IMG/VR virus record: IMGVR_UViG_3300048927_000762
Coordinates: 1-22,795 of that record
DNA length: 22,795 bases
Direction: 5' to 3' (one strand)
Source: a virus
The position numbers and the translations under genes are program-made. Positions 5,713-11,043 of the stretch are shown in pieces. A model generated the notes under the pieces. It made no database searches. It was not told where the DNA came from and worked only from the letters and a program-made list of their open reading frames with translations. How positions within the stretch are numbered: the stretch's first letter is position 1; each line of letters starts with the position of its first letter.

Positions 5713-7075
5713 AGTCGGTGGTCCCGTCGCTGTACTGGATGACCTTACGGCCGTTTGGCAGGGTGCCCGTGCGCACGACAGTGCGGCCGCTGGCCTGGCC
5801 CCCGTTGGCGTACTTCTGGTTCAGTTGGCGGATCGTCCGCAACGCGGCCATTCGCGTCTCAACCGGTATCGTTGGGTTGGCAAGGTCGCCAGCCATCTGT
5901 TGATAGAGCTGCACGTCTCGGTCGGACTGAGGCCCCTGCATGCGCGGCATCTTGGAGGTAAGTTGGCCCGCGATAGTCTGCAACTGCGCCGTTGCCTGAG
6001 CGCCAGGCGTGGAAGCGCCCACCAGGCCCGCAGCAGCATCAACGAACTGACCACCGCGCCCGCCCGTAGCATTCGGCAAAATGCGCTCGGCTTGGTCAAG
6101 CAGCGATAGGGTATCTTGCGCGCTACGCTGGCGCTCGGCCTGGGTGGCTTCCAATTCAGCGCGGTTCTTGGCCTGTGCAGTAACCTCAGCGGTTCCGCCC
6201 GCTTGCTGGATGGCAGCATTGGTGCGCATGCCAAGTTCGGCTGGCAACGTGGACAGCTCTACTTGACGACGTGCGGCGGCCTCTGCGGCTGCCTTCTCGA
6301 CCGACGTTGGCGTGCGCGCTAGGCCGCTCGCACCGGGCTGTCCACCGAACACCATCTGCCCGGGCGGCTCCTGGCCGCTGGACAAGGATTGGCGGATCTG
6401 CGCTTGCACTTCCGGCGGAAGCGACGGGTCAATGTAAGCGCCCTGCGGCTGTGGCGTCTGAGCAGCACCCAGCGGGATGGTTTGGCCTGCGACGCCACCA
6501 CTGGTGACGATGCCGATCGGCACTTGGCCCTCCTGCTCCAATACCTTGATGTTCGGGTTGGACCGAACGCCGGTATTGACGAACCTGCCGTCACGCATCA
6601 CGTTGTAGTAATAGCCATCATCGCCTACGCGCACCGATTGAACCTGCCCCTGTGCGCCGCCACCCGTTTGAGCCAAGACCTGATACAGCGTCGGCGCCAT
6701 GGTCGCATCGTCCCATTGCTCCGGGAACTGGCCCTGCGGCATCTCACGGGTAAGCATCGGGCGGACTGCGTTCCAGGCGCCTTGGACGGCCTGCGGGTTG
6801 TTCGTCTGGCGAGCCTGTTCCAGGTAGCGGGCAGCGCCGGCCAGCTTCTGCATGCGCCGGTCTTCCTGCCCCTGGAACTGCTGCTGCGTCGCCTGGGCAG
6901 CCTGCGGGTTGATGGCGGCCATTTGGCCCAAGATGGCCTGTTGCTGGTCAGGCTGCGCGGTGTAGGACTGCCCCGCGAGCTGAGCCAACTGGTTCTGTTG
7001 GCCTCGCTGCCGGCCCATCTCGCCCTGCTGCTGGACGTAGGACAGTGCTTCGAGAGGGCTGAGCATGTTTGCCAT
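5702..7075 (-). CDS. DNA-ejection protein, gp20-like
   Basis: A 457-residue protein with a very Gln/Ala-rich helical N-terminus (QQQGEMGRQRGQQNQLAQLAGQ ... ATQQQFQGQEDRRMQKLAGAARYL), as seen in the second ejection protein of P22-like phages. A middle segment (residues about 140-170) contains VRVGDDGYYYNVMRDGRFVNTGV, and the C-terminus ends in RTGTLPNGRKVIQYSDGTTDYGN, both small beta-hairpin-like. It starts at a TAATG overlap with the gp7-like gene and overlaps the next by 11 nt, so the three ejection genes form a translationally coupled block. Assignment rests on order, composition and size (P22 gp20 is about 471 residues) more than on a signature motif. Confidence 0.7.
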   Translation of the reverse strand: MANMLSPLEALSYVQQQGEMGRQRGQQNQLAQLAGQSYTAQPDQQQAILGQMAAINPQAAQATQQQFQGQEDRRMQKLAGAARYLEQARQTNNPQAVQGAWNAVRPMLTREMPQGQFPEQWDDATMAPTLYQVLAQTGGGAQGQVQSVRVGDDGYYYNVMRDGRFVNTGVRSNPNIKVLEQEGQVPIGIVTSGGVAGQTIPLGAAQTPQPQGAYIDPSLPPEVQAQIRQSLSSGQEPPGQMVFGGQPGASGLARTPTSVEKAAAEAAARRQVELSTLPAELGMRTNAAIQQAGGTAEVTAQAKNRAELEATQAERQRSAQDTLSLLDQAERILPNATGGRGGQFVDAAAGLVGASTPGAQATAQLQTIAGQLTSKMPRMQGPQSDRDVQLYQQMAGDLANPTIPVETRMAALRTIRQLNQKYANGGQASGRTVVRTGTLPNGRKVIQYSDGTTDYGN

Positions 7076-7740
7076 TAGGACTTCCTCGCGAAGCTATACA
7101 GGTTGTTGCCGAAGTTGTACGGGCTACCCTGGCTGGCCTGCGGGTTGTAGAGCGACGCCAGTTGATTGGCGCCGTAGCTGCTCTGCCGGCCCTGGAGGTA
7201 GTTGTTCGCCAAGCCTCCCAGCCCCGCAACAAGCTGCGCGTTCGCATCGGCCGACTGGTAGGCGGCGTTCGAGTTGGCATTGCCCACGGCGTTGGCATAG
7301 TTGGTGTTGACACCAGACAGCGCATTGGCAGCGCTCTGGCCCATACCAGCCAAGTTCTGGATCTTGTTGTAATAATTGTTGTACTGCTGCGATGCCAAGC
7401 CCTGGGAGTAGTTCAGCACGTCGGCCTGCTGGCCGCCCGAGTACAGGGAGCCACGAGCGGCAGCGCTGCGATCCAGCCCCTGCAAGCCCTGCTGTTGCGT
7501 CCACTGGTAGTCCGGAGACTCCTTGAAGCTGCTGTAGTTGCCAGAATTGAGCGATGCAAGCTGGTTCAGCGCATTGGTGCCGGTGTCCAGGTAGGGCTGC
7601 ATGTTCGCCTGATTGGCCGAGCGAGCCTGCTCCTGCGCGCGAGTGGTCGCATTCGCTGCACCCTGTGCACCCTTCTTCGCCTGGTTGGCGGCGTAGGCAG
7701 TACTGCCCGCGATTAGAACAGCACCGGTAACTGCGGCCAT
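7075..7740 (-). CDS. DNA-transfer/ejection protein, gp7-like
   Basis: A 221-residue protein. I use the ATG at 7740 (MAAVTGAVLIAGSTAYAA), which forms a TAATG overlap with the GNAT gene; an upstream in-frame ATG would run deep into that gene. The core PYLDTGTNALNQLASL ... SPDYQWTQQQGLQGLDRSAAARGSLYSGGQQADVLNYSQGLASQQYNNYYNKIQNLAGMGQSAA is the recurring signature of phage DNA-transfer proteins. The N-terminus is mildly hydrophobic and may act as the leader removed from, or used by, the ejected protein. P22 gp7 is about 229 residues, so the length agrees. It is packaged in the virion and delivered to the cell envelope ahead of DNA. Confidence 0.8.
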   Translation of the reverse strand: MAAVTGAVLIAGSTAYAANQAKKGAQGAANATTRAQEQARSANQANMQPYLDTGTNALNQLASLNSGNYSSFKESPDYQWTQQQGLQGLDRSAAARGSLYSGGQQADVLNYSQGLASQQYNNYYNKIQNLAGMGQSAANALSGVNTNYANAVGNANSNAAYQSADANAQLVAGLGGLANNYLQGRQSSYGANQLASLYNPQASQGSPYNFGNNLYSFARKS

Positions 7741-8183
7741 TAGTGCAGCCTCTTGGTGTAGGAGGTTTCGGAGTGGGCGTAGCCAGCGCGTTCGTACAGC
7801 GCGGCGGCTTGCGGCGGGCTGGAAGCCAAGGTGACCATCACGACGATGGAGGCGCCCCGAGCGACGCAGGCGGTATCGACCGCAGCAAGGAGTTGCTTCC
7901 CGACGCCTGCGCCCTGCGCCTCCGGCTCGACCCACCAGACAACCTCGTAGGCGGCGTTGATCGAGTTGTTGAACATGAAGGGAGCGACGACCAGCCCGAC
8001 CATGCCGACGACCTTGCCGCCTTCCTCAGCCACCAACATCACGCTATCCATCAACTGGCGAGCGAGTGCGGCCACCGTCTCATCGTCCATCGGCGCATGC
8101 TCGGCATAACTGGTGGTCGCGTAGAACTTGCGGGACATTTCCACGATGCGCGGGACATCGTCCTCGACAGCGATTCGGATCAT
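7740..8183 (-). CDS. GNAT-family N-acetyltransferase
   Basis: A 147-residue protein with the GNAT fold signature. A beta-strand VWWVEPEAQ is followed by the acetyl-CoA pyrophosphate loop Q90-G-A-G-V-G95 and helix KQLLAAVDTA, then a C-terminal ...AALYERAGYAHSETSYTKRLH motif typical of the family. It would transfer an acetyl group from acetyl-CoA to an amine; the substrate is unknown. It lies between a 2OG-oxygenase-like gene (ATGA overlap upstream) and the gp7-like ejection gene (TAATG overlap downstream), so it is expressed with virion proteins. Such context suggests modification of a host or virion protein, or protection against an antibacterial or antiphage factor. P22 has tail genes 26 and 14 near this position. 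Confidence 0.85.
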   Translation of the reverse strand: MIRIAVEDDVPRIVEMSRKFYATTSYAEHAPMDDETVAALARQLMDSVMLVAEEGGKVVGMVGLVVAPFMFNNSINAAYEVVWWVEPEAQGAGVGKQLLAAVDTACVARGASIVVMVTLASSPPQAAALYERAGYAHSETSYTKRLH

Positions 8184-8731
8184 GCGTTTCCCTCGGGCGT
8201 AAAAAAGGCGACTGCTACGAGTCGCCCGGATTCGGGATCAGTGCCGAACGCCGCGAACGGCCATCGGCTGTGGAACAGCGCGGATTCGTAGATGACGCAG
8301 CGGCCCATGCGCATCTCGGCGAGGCCGGTTTGCTCCCAGCGCTCAGCGTCATCCCAGTCGTTGCGGATCTGCTCAAACAGCTCGAAATCGCCTTGCTCGA
8401 TGCGCTCGGCGCCAGTTGCCTTGTGCCGCCAGAAGGCCGTGCCGCCATCGCCTTCGCACAGGTACAGGACAGCGGCATGCGTGCCCCAGCCCATGTCCGA
8501 GTGGATCGCCGCGTTCGGCAGCTCGCCGCCATAGTTCAGGCGGTAGCCCATACCCAGCATCTCCACAGGCCCCATGGCGCGCTCTATGCCCTCGCGCAGG
8601 CCTGGAACGTCCACCAGCGCCACGCGCTTGTAGACCTGGCCGTCGTGCCCGGGCCAGTCGATATAGGGCGCAGCGAGGCCTGCGGCGCGCACTGTGGGTG
8701 CGTCCGCCAGGAAGTCATCGATGATGAGCAT
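8180..8731 (-). CDS. 2OG-Fe(II) dioxygenase-like protein
   Basis: A 183-residue protein with the hallmarks of a non-haem iron dioxygenase: H77-x-D79 in AAIHSDMGWGTHAAVLYLCEGDGGTAFW, a distal H154 in ALFHSRWPF, and R170 in SGRLVAVAFF suited to binding 2-oxoglutarate. The AVLYL ... GGTAFWRH stretch is the usual jelly-roll core. It would couple 2-oxoglutarate decarboxylation to hydroxylation of an unknown substrate, possibly protein residues as in prolyl hydroxylases. It begins at a TAATG overlap with the small gp10 C-terminal-domain gene and ends overlapping the GNAT gene. The 3' coding end contains a perfect intrinsic terminator whose T6 tract encodes Phe-Phe. Confidence 0.75.
   Translation of the reverse strand: MLIIDDFLADAPTVRAAGLAAPYIDWPGHDGQVYKRVALVDVPGLREGIERAMGPVEMLGMGYRLNYGGELPNAAIHSDMGWGTHAAVLYLCEGDGGTAFWRHKATGAERIEQGDFELFEQIRNDWDDAERWEQTGLAEMRMGRCVIYESALFHSRWPFAAFGTDPESGRLVAVAFFTPEGNA
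8201..8226 (-). terminator. Intrinsic terminator inside the 3' end of the dioxygenase gene
   Basis: On the minus strand GGCGACT-cgtagc-AGTCGCC is followed immediately by TTTTTT (plus-strand stem 8207-8213 with 8220-8226, A6 at 8201-8206). The 7-bp stem is perfect and the T tract is canonical. It lies within codons for ...GRLVAVAFF, before the stop at 8180 and before the GNAT start at 8183. Confidence 0.75.
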
Positions 8732-8952
8732 TAGCCGTCCGTAGGCTCGATGTAGGCAACAGCGCCGTAGAGGTCGCGAGAGACTGGGCTGGAGATGCGG
8801 ATGCGGAACACCCAGTTGCGGGCCGGGCCTAGCCGGTTGATGCGGATGCGGCGCTCGTACTGACCCAGGTCGCCCATCGAATACTCGCGCCAGTTAGACC
8901 AGTTGTAGCCGCCGTCCTTGGAGTAGCACACCTCGATCTTTCGGTCGGTCAT
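8731..8952 (-). CDS. Detached C-terminal domain of the gp10-type tail hub
   Basis: This 73-residue ORF starts with ATGA overlapping the stop of the gp10-like gene. Its sequence (KIEVCYSKDGGYNWSNWREYSMGDLGQYERRIRINRLGPARNWVFRIRISSPVSRDLYGA) aligns by eye with the C-terminal ~65 residues of P22 gp10-type hub proteins, where a similar DG-x-x-x-W ... Y-x-x-R ... R-x-G-x-x-R ... F-x-x-R pattern ends the chain. It therefore looks like the family's C-terminal domain encoded as a separate, translationally coupled polypeptide. It could assemble with the hub in trans. Local G+C is high (81 of 120 at 8761-8880), like the hub body and unlike the insert just upstream. Confidence 0.7.
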   Translation of the reverse strand: MTDRKIEVCYSKDGGYNWSNWREYSMGDLGQYERRIRINRLGPARNWVFRIRISSPVSRDLYGAVAYIEPTDG

Positions 8953-10577
8953 GGTGTGTATCCAGTGGTCAAGACCTCAACATTCCAATTGGAGGTTTGG
9001 ACGGCTCCGTTTTGCAGGCCCTTCATCGTCAAACTGATTCCAGAGCCGAGCGGCAAGCTACGTTCAATCACCGATGGTGCGAAAGTAGACGTAGGCGTTG
9101 GAGAGGCATTGGCAACAACTTCCGTGCCGCTGCCTGATTGGACTTCGATATTCACTGTTGCGCCATCAGTGGCGAAGAAATACAGATTGGTCAGCCGAAC
9201 TCCCAACACACCCGAGCCGGTGATCTGCAACTTCCAGCCAGTGCTACCCCCAGGAATGTCGCCATAGCGGATTTCGCCAATGATGGAGCCGTCCATCGTG
9301 GACGAGTTGGCGTTTGGGTCAGGGGTGAAGGTATAGCCGACGTTTGAGTCGCTGATCGGCTGCCAGACAGGCTCCGGCTCGGGCGCTCCTGGCGGCACCG
9401 TTTCTTCCAGCCCCATGCTCGCCAGCAGCTCCAGATAGTTGGCATTGATGCGGTTCTGGTTGTTGTGCACCACACCAGAGGTGCGCTCAGACACCAGCGG
9501 CTGGTCGCCTTCCAACATGTAGTCCCAGTCCAGCACCCACAGCGTGCCGTTCTGGAAGTCGCCACCGATCCACATGTTGTTCCAGCGTGTCAGCGTGTTG
9601 AGGCGCCAACGCTTCAGGCCGTAGGACTCGCGGCGGTGCCACAGGCGCGTCACCACGTCATAGCCCCAGGTCTGGCCGTCAGGGAAAGTCAGGTAATAGA
9701 CCTTGTGTTCGCCGTCCTCCCACTTGAACGCGAACGCCTGCTTCCAGTTGTTGTCCTTGATCGCGTTCTGAATGGCGCCAGTGGACACCGGAATGGCGTT
9801 GTAGCCGTCAAGGCGGTAGACCACGCCATCATCGCCCAGCCAAAAAATGCTGTTGTCCAGCTTGACGACGGATTGCCCAGCAGCGCACCCGCGCTCAATC
9901 AGGACGCGCTTATTCTCAAACGTGCCAGTCGTGGCGCCGCTGTTGTAGAAGAACTCGATGGTGGTCTGGTTGAACACCACCACCTCAAACTGGCTCACCA
10001 CCAACGTGACGATCTTGTCCGGTGAGCCTTCTGACTCGCTGCGGTCCAAAGTGTTGTAGGACAACGCATCGGCAAGGTCGCTGAAGAACCAGTAGCGGCC
10101 GAAAGGCTCGACTTGCAGTAGGTAGCTATCGAGGTAGGCGACCGACTTCGCGCCGGGATAGCCTTCATCCGAAATGACCGTAAAAGTGCTGGTCGCAGTG
10201 TTCCAGACGTAGCCGGTACTTTGCCCCGTTGCGATCAGCAGTTGGTTGCCATTCGTGACTTGGTTGTAAGCCATCGACACGCGGCCGACGCCGGGGATCG
10301 TGCCGCGCACCGTGCTGGTGCCATCGGTCTTGACCTCGCGCAGCTGTGTGCCAGTCACGACGAACAGCGCGCCCTCTACGTTGATCGCGCCACGAATCGG
10401 CTTGGTGCCCAGCACCGCGAACTGACGTAGCCCAGGAGGCGATGCCAGCTTCGTGCGTGTGCGCGTTCCAGGCGCATCCGCTACCTCCGGCAGCCAGTTC
10501 ACCGTGTCTTGCACAGACCACGGGCGGCTCGCGTCGGTGTAGTAGCCGCCGAGTAGGTCGATGGGCTTGAACTTCAT
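8949..10577 (-). CDS. gp10-like tail hub (packaged-DNA stabilisation protein) with a foreign C-terminal module
   Basis: A 542-residue protein. Residues 1 to about 390 match the P22 gp10/phage stabilisation family: VNWLPE near the start, a beta-propeller-like series (GRVSMAYNQVTNGNQLLIATG, YLDSYLLQVEPFGRYWFFSDL), EFFYNSGATTGTFENKRVLIERGCAAGQS, NSIFWLGDDGVVYRLDGY, then WDYMLEGDQPLVSERTSG ... NRINANYLELLASMGLE. P22 gp10 is 472 residues and ends soon after this point. Here a Pro-rich linker (PPGAPEPEPVW) leads into about 140 extra residues of unrelated beta-rich sequence, and the canonical C-terminal domain is encoded by the next gene. The insert is lower in G+C (131 of 240 at 9001-9240). It starts at a TGATG overlap with the gp4-like gene. 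The role is to form the hub that closes the portal. Confidence 0.85.
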   Translation of the reverse strand: MKFKPIDLLGGYYTDASRPWSVQDTVNWLPEVADAPGTRTRTKLASPPGLRQFAVLGTKPIRGAINVEGALFVVTGTQLREVKTDGTSTVRGTIPGVGRVSMAYNQVTNGNQLLIATGQSTGYVWNTATSTFTVISDEGYPGAKSVAYLDSYLLQVEPFGRYWFFSDLADALSYNTLDRSESEGSPDKIVTLVVSQFEVVVFNQTTIEFFYNSGATTGTFENKRVLIERGCAAGQSVVKLDNSIFWLGDDGVVYRLDGYNAIPVSTGAIQNAIKDNNWKQAFAFKWEDGEHKVYYLTFPDGQTWGYDVVTRLWHRRESYGLKRWRLNTLTRWNNMWIGGDFQNGTLWVLDWDYMLEGDQPLVSERTSGVVHNNQNRINANYLELLASMGLEETVPPGAPEPEPVWQPISDSNVGYTFTPDPNANSSTMDGSIIGEIRYGDIPGGSTGWKLQITGSGVLGVRLTNLYFFATDGATVNIEVQSGSGTEVVANASPTPTSTFAPSVIERSLPLGSGISLTMKGLQNGAVQTSNWNVEVLTTGYTP

Positions 10578-10981
10578 CAGTAGTCGTACCCATCGCTGCG
10601 GATGTTGTAGCGACCACGAAGGCCCAAACCAGGCTCCATGCTCATCGGATTGGCCGCGAACGTGTCAGCCAGAATGTCGGACTTCAGCTTGCGCGCATCG
10701 GCGAACACGTCAGGATCGAGCGTGGCGCCGTACATGGGGCGCAAACGAAGTGCCAGGTTGTAGATGATTGCCTCGTCCGCCTCGGGCGGGCTGGGCATGT
10801 CGTCGTCAGGGATTGCCACAGGCGACCAGCCAACCGTGTAGCCGTTGGCCTCCCACCGCGCCATCATCCGGTTCAGAGAATCAATCGCCGTCTTGGAATC
10901 AGCCGCCTCTGGAGCCTCGCTAGCGTCGATTACGCGCAGCAGCCCAAGGGCGCCAATGACGATTTCTGCGACCTTGGTCAT
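10577..10981 (-). CDS. gp4-like tail adaptor protein
   Basis: A 134-residue protein. I use the ATG at 10981, preceded by GGGAG with six bases of spacing, rather than an upstream in-frame start (11029) that would lie across the terminator hairpin. The N-terminal segment VAEIVIGALGLLRVIDASEAPEAADSKTAIDSLNRMMARWEANGYTVGW is the helical signature of P22 gp4-type adaptors (AL-x-LL-x-V ... E-x-x-x-A ... LN-x-M-x-x-W). EADEAIIYNLALRLRP follows. P22 gp4 is 166 residues; this one is shorter at the C-terminus, and I see no evidence of the muramidase region reported for P22 gp4. It would form the ring between portal and gp10 hub, completing DNA retention. Confidence 0.8.
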   Translation of the reverse strand: MTKVAEIVIGALGLLRVIDASEAPEAADSKTAIDSLNRMMARWEANGYTVGWSPVAIPDDDMPSPPEADEAIIYNLALRLRPMYGATLDPDVFADARKLKSDILADTFAANPMSMEPGLGLRGRYNIRSDGYDY

Positions 10982-10992
10982 TCCCGTCTCCC

Positions 10993-11022
10993 AAAAAGGA
11001 GGGGCGACCCGAAGGCCGCCCC
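10993..11022 (-). terminator. Intrinsic terminator with UUCG loop before the gp4-like gene
   Basis: On the minus strand GGGGCGGCC-TTCG-GGTCGCCCC forms a 9-bp stem with one G-T pair and a UUCG tetraloop, followed by TCCTTTTT (plus-strand stem 11001-11009 with 11014-11022, A5 at 10993-10997). It fills most of the 62-nt gap after the small charged-protein gene. The T tract ends 11 nt before the start codon at 10981, leaving no room for a promoter. Confidence 0.8.
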
Positions 11023-11043
11023 TGTTCACTGACTTCTTGTCGC

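Follow-up and report, generated by a model that had tools for sequence, protein, structure and literature searches.

A locus in the virus record IMGVR_UViG_3300048927_000762 raises the question of how a tail hub of the P22 gp10 type can be encoded in two open reading frames, the first of which ends in a stretch unrelated to the family. The record is a 22.8-kb fragment, and its positions 1–22,795, the whole of the 22,795 nucleotides analyzed, are referred to here as the window. In P22, the lower body of the tail is formed by six copies of gp10, and the gp26 needle, which extends from its center, plugs the channel (PMC3741392). An initial annotation, made from the sequence of the window alone, described a hub gene split by a foreign cassette. 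We consider it likely that this locus encodes a P22-type podovirus hub made of two chains and carrying an exchangeable, probably surface-binding, module.

Gene order and identity of the two hub ORFs

The genes on the minus strand of the window follow one another in the order gp4-type tail adaptor, hub ORF, 73-codon ORF, DUF6445 gene, acetyltransferase gene and DNA ejection family gene. The adaptor gene (10577..11029, minus strand; PF11650 P22_Tail-4; phrog_637, head-tail adaptor Ad3) lies directly upstream of the hub ORF and adjoins it, and the gene assigned by family match to DNA ejection (7075–7743, minus strand) lies downstream, which is the placement of P22 gp10-type hubs. The hub ORF, ORF1, encodes 542 amino acids (8949–10577, minus strand) and ORF2 encodes 73 (8731–8952, minus strand). 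The two share the tetranucleotide ATGA (8949..8952, minus strand), in which ATG at 8952–8950 starts ORF2 and TGA at 8951–8949 terminates ORF1, a geometry that probably reflects termination-reinitiation. The DUF6445 gene (8180..8731, minus strand; PF20043) is directly downstream of ORF2.

ORF1 matches phrog_578 (head closure Hc3, gp10 type) at 6.6e-125 and PF11134 with 28.5 bits, above the cut-off of 25, and its profile matches the solved hubs of P22, Sf6, Pam1 and Pan3. These matches, together with Foldseek and the family alignment, define a hub core in residues 1–389 (9411..10577, minus strand), which extends to the first strand of a C-terminal β-hairpin. The initial annotation had the ORF follow the gp10 family to about residue 390 and continue for about 150 unrelated residues, and this description is confirmed: in the alignment the core ends at approximately residue 386–389 and is followed by 153 unrelated residues (8952..9410, minus strand), predicted with low confidence to be all-β and assigned to no known family, and then by the stop codon. 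ORF2, taken in the same annotation for the canonical C-terminal segment of the family restarting at the ATGA overlap, proves to be just that. It matches the C-terminal part of phrog_578 (profile positions 409–471 of 486, 1.6e-10) and, at 2.7e-37, the final 71 positions of phrog_19101, aligns with the C-termini of single-chain hubs and retains the hub-family motif. The break falls in the loop of the β-hairpin, between ...LELDxxxGVGL and DPxxxLxWSxDGG....

The P22, Sf6 (7sg7), Pam1 and Pan3 hubs share with the window the core profile, the predicted fold, the C-terminal motif and the neighboring gp4-type adaptor, but each of them is one module-free chain of about 440–475 residues, whereas the window has a separate C-terminal segment and a 153-residue module. 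A single chain, in which the C-terminal part begins 7–53 residues past the core, is also found in 14 annotated phage records, so that the two-gene form is not universal. Since the P22 gp10-type family is characterized by a single polypeptide, the window, with its C-terminal segment in an ORF of its own, represents a split variant.

Both chains are under selection for protein sequence. The dN/dS values range from 0.04 to 0.55 across core, module and second chain, the highest being those of second-chain pairs with locus L103; for ORF2 of the window they are 0.14–0.22 against L002, L003, L101 and L107, and 0.55 against L103. By its core the window is nearest to L002, yet its C-terminal segment has 82–83% amino acid identity to the segments of L107 and L003 and 72% to that of L002; from these identities the segment, too, seems to recombine.

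Recurrence of the split among related hubs

Viral contigs were searched for hub loci with the core, the C-terminal segment, the module and further queries, and 149 non-redundant hubs were classified: 59 have one chain with a short loop at the break point, 50 have one chain with a loop of more than 30 residues, 37 are split and 3 have no detectable C-terminal segment. Most relatives are thus single chains with a loop of 7–106 residues, and two of them, L133 and L135, hold a 162-residue insert at the same loop. Two further split cases are the viral contig L169 and the Stenotrophomonas-group prophage L160; the C-terminal segment was found in 4 of 91 Stenotrophomonas genomes, a sporadic occurrence that is expected of prophages. 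The loop lengths of one-chain hubs (e.g. L029, L038, L047 and L097) cluster at about 13–14, 42–46, 80 and 90 residues and give the impression of a stepwise gain of small units at one hairpin.

On a tree of the cores, the clade of the window comprises 27 hubs, all 26 scorable members of which are split, and one-chain hubs occupy other branches. The split state requires at least 5–6 changes on this tree, which was built quickly and has some long branches. For one case the deep branches do not matter. L049, which groups with the one-chain hubs L051 and L060, has a 300-residue Gly-rich module, a stop and a restart between core and C-terminal region, and its DNA is 92% identical to that of L051 in the core and 91% in the C-terminal region; the split of L049 is an independent and recent one. 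L071, with a DUF285 module, and L169, with a different module and a core 83% identical to that of L071, belong to a group that is otherwise single-chain.

No split hub of the survey has an empty slot at the break; there are either 156–434 extra residues on the hub chain or intervening genes. In most split relatives the hub extends past the core by 156–434 residues, as compared with 153 in the window. A SPRY gene occupies the gap in L107. In L108 the core gene is separated from the gene for the C-terminal segment, which is itself fused to another domain, by a gene that matches glycosyltransferase-2 weakly (L108:4937–5563). An arrangement of the L108 type is apparently present in L120 and L122 also. 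The proposal that a cassette carrying its own stop and restart was inserted into an intact hub gene therefore survives in part: an unrelated module does sit at a fixed point with the C-terminal segment restarting behind it, but the point is one of recurrent exchange rather than the site of a single event.

The place of the second chain

Structure predictions bear on whether the first chain is complete by itself. The model of L133, a single chain with an insert at the loop, has a mean pLDDT of 78.9 and matches solved P22-type hubs in Foldseek with TMt of 0.80–0.88. Chain 1 of the window modeled alone has an overall pLDDT of 79.6, but its core end and module are poorly predicted (block means 36–69), and its best Foldseek matches, the Pan3, P22, Pam1 and Sf6 hubs, reach TMt of 0.65–0.67. 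A strand at residues 377–388 of the L133 model is not formed in that of window chain 1. This comparison, between single-chain models of different proteins in which part of the drop in TM-score comes from the missing segment itself, is suggestive of a terminal domain for which the second chain is required.

The C-terminal segment is also found in another context. The hub of L003 carries a module of the window type, and in the same locus the C-terminal segment is additionally fused behind a GTA TIM barrel in a 595-residue protein (L003:5632–7419). The barrel matches PF13547 at 1e-106 and is 57–59% identical to its closest relatives, proteins of the Xanthomonas phages XAJ2 and LucasX. Proteins with a GTA TIM barrel are found in Rhodobacter phages and are related to the gene transfer agent RcGTA (PMC8601537). 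The ORF of L003 thus has the same domain as these tail proteins of Rhodobacter phages, XAJ2 and LucasX, but in L003 it is joined to the terminal segment of a short-tail hub, and the window has no TIM barrel. In our searches a TIM barrel on a podovirus hub segment was found in L003 only, the other five loci recovered in the same search having no hub core. The family phrog_19101 (595 aa), which is of unknown function and whose last 71 positions correspond to the 73-residue ORF of the window, fits over its full length the L003 type, a TIM barrel followed by the C-terminal segment; the window has the terminal segment only. That phrog_19101 ends in a hub segment offers an explanation for this family.

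Given such fusions, the C-terminal segment might have left the hub and become a small protein in its own right or a portable anchor, for example a holder of cargo elsewhere on the tail. The 595-residue TIM-barrel protein of L003 ends in it and another domain is fused to it in L108, so that it evidently tolerates cargo. Yet the segment lies downstream of the core in 37 of 37 split loci, which were scored as split by that position and so necessarily have it there, it keeps the hub-family motif, and chain 1 of the window, to judge from its model, would lack part of the solved hub fold by itself. We regard a segment lost to the hub as improbable, and the roles of anchor and hub component are compatible.

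Exchange of the module

The modules of related split hubs belong to many families. A He_PIG Ig domain is found, often with WD40-, BNR- or sortilin-like repeats (β-propeller) behind it, as are DUF7483, laminin-G-like (LamG-like), SPRY, DUF285 and Gly-rich modules, and those of several relatives match PHROGs of tail fiber, minor tail or virion structural proteins. Because several of the alternative modules belong to such tail-fiber and virion-structural families, a receptor- or glycan-binding role of the module is plausible.

Split hubs whose cores are at least 75% identical form 75 pairs, many of which have members in common and so are not independent events, and in 58 of these pairs the modules are less than 35% identical. 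In several pairs of loci a good DNA alignment reaches the point where the core or the Ig domain ends, is lost in the module and picks up again near the restart codon, with identities before and after the break of 98% and 93% in L119/L021, 90% and 90% in L131/L129, 83% and 93% in L111/L112, 83% and 81% in L138/L148, and 84% and 90% in L107/L103. The break point is a recurrent site of exchange for many unrelated modules, as these sequence comparisons indicate.

The window shows the same pattern. In a sliding comparison with the DNA of L002, an identity of about 90% gives way to about 60% across the module and climbs back to about 90% in the DUF6445 gene, which thus forms a conserved flank. The core is 96% identical to that of L002 and 68% to that of L101, and for the module the order is reversed, with 84% identity to L101 and 64% to L002. 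No homologue of the module was found in annotated phages, Pfam or PHROGs; its only relatives are in L002 and L003, from the scan of viral contigs, and in L101, which was recovered via the C-terminal segment. The insert of L133, of similar length and within one chain, has no homology to the window module that is recognizable by eye, and no family was found for it.

Low G+C content was considered as a mark of foreign origin and rejected as inconsistent. The counts given for it initially, 131/240 at 9001–9240 versus 81/120 at 8761–8880, are reproduced exactly, and the module has a GC of 0.564 and a GC3 of 0.63 against 0.60 and 0.81 for the core; in L002, however, the module (0.619) is not poorer in G+C than the core (0.607), so that the bias is not a trait of the lineage.

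The initial annotation further suggested that the module protrudes where P22 has its needle and may have acquired a plug function. As a plug or needle substitute closing the tail channel in place of gp26, it would account for the fact that no needle-like gene was recognized between the hub and ejection genes, although in a 22.8-kb fragment this counts for little. A plug should be conserved, yet no part of the locus varies more than the module, which is freely replaced by unrelated folds, including β-propellers, Gly-rich sequences and DUF285, and we judge a plug unlikely, slightly more so than a C-terminal segment that has left the hub.

The junction between the chains

The ATGA junction of the window is shared by L002 and L101, and other split hubs have other frames and other stop codons. 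In the 32 loci in which module and C-terminal segment are adjacent, a start codon lies at −7 to +9 nucleotides from the last base of the stop codon. The C-terminal segment is in the relative frame of the window at 22 of these junctions, in another frame at 6 and in the same frame behind the stop at 4, and TGA, TAA and TAG are all used. Since the start stands beside the stop in three frames and with three stop codons, coupled re-initiation fits the data, and the pattern argues against an assembly error and against a conserved product of frameshifting.

Programmed ribosomal frameshifting at the overlap would yield some full-length fused hub, in which chain 2 would be mainly a C-terminal extension, and where the frame of the window is shared a single kind of frameshift could indeed fuse the chains. 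Against this stand the 10 junctions in one or other of the two remaining arrangements, the conservation of a start codon beside the stop and the presence of a whole intervening ORF in L003 and L107, and we consider such frameshifting quite improbable. An error of sequencing or assembly, for which the initial annotation asked that the 8949 junction be re-checked, would mean that the real genome has module and C-terminal segment in one chain, like L133. A single frame change at 8949–8952 would indeed fuse the two ORFs, and L133 and L135 are examples of one-chain relatives with an insert. Such an error is nevertheless very unlikely, to the point of being negligible, because the split recurs in 37 non-redundant loci, with the same ATGA in the independent contigs L002 and L101, adjacent starts and stops in all the combinations described, and dN/dS below 1 for both chains.

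A proposed two-chain hub with a replaceable domain

We propose that the last domain of the hub is a small β structure, the first strand of which would close the 389-residue core and the remaining strands of which would be supplied, in trans, by the 73-residue second chain, made by coupled termination and re-initiation. A cut at the loop of the β-hairpin would leave a free C-terminus to carry the module, which a multi-copy hub would bear several times, presumably exposed on the virion. The module is swapped by recombination between the conserved sequences on either side; as a stop codon closes it and no return to the frame of the hub is required, one in-frame join and a restart codon are enough for a new module. 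Judged from the kinds of module in relatives, its likely job would be to bind or digest host surface material at adsorption. Splitting is not strictly needed to carry cargo, because in L133 and L135 a single chain accommodates an insert of comparable length.

In modular phage receptor-binding proteins, a conserved part binds the particle and a highly variable C-terminal domain can be replaced. The split hub likewise combines a conserved carrier part with an exchangeable domain, but here the hub itself serves as the carrier, and a second, downstream chain would complete its fold. Neither a split P22-type hub nor module exchange on a hub is described in the open-access literature searched, subscription papers being outside that search. 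As a tentative interpretation, to which we would give somewhat less than an even chance, the hub may have evolved into an open socket: two coupled chains would turn an internal insertion, with its two in-frame joins, into a terminal fusion with one, many domains could be displayed in this way, and the short chain would be a second, portable port for cargo such as the GTA TIM barrel of L003.

Tail hubs are usually regarded as conserved structure, and host range is attributed to fibers and spikes. If the two-chain reading is correct, split hubs with swappable domains would represent an additional, unannotated site of host interaction in some podoviruses and prophages. They would also provide a natural route for grafting a domain onto a virus tail, by a single in-frame fusion with the second chain completing the fold.

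The exchange of whole domains does not look like mutagenesis by a diversity-generating retroelement. A reverse transcriptase match (RVT_1) above cut-off was found in 2 of 28 related records, those of L115 and L119 (the record of the window is outside these 28), and in that of L119 it is far from the hub; both records belong to the split clade. In L107, an ORF that by eye resembles an HNH-type homing endonuclease (L107:7015–7686) lies just downstream of the acetyltransferase gene, and the DNA similarity of L107 to the window and to L103 breaks at this ORF.
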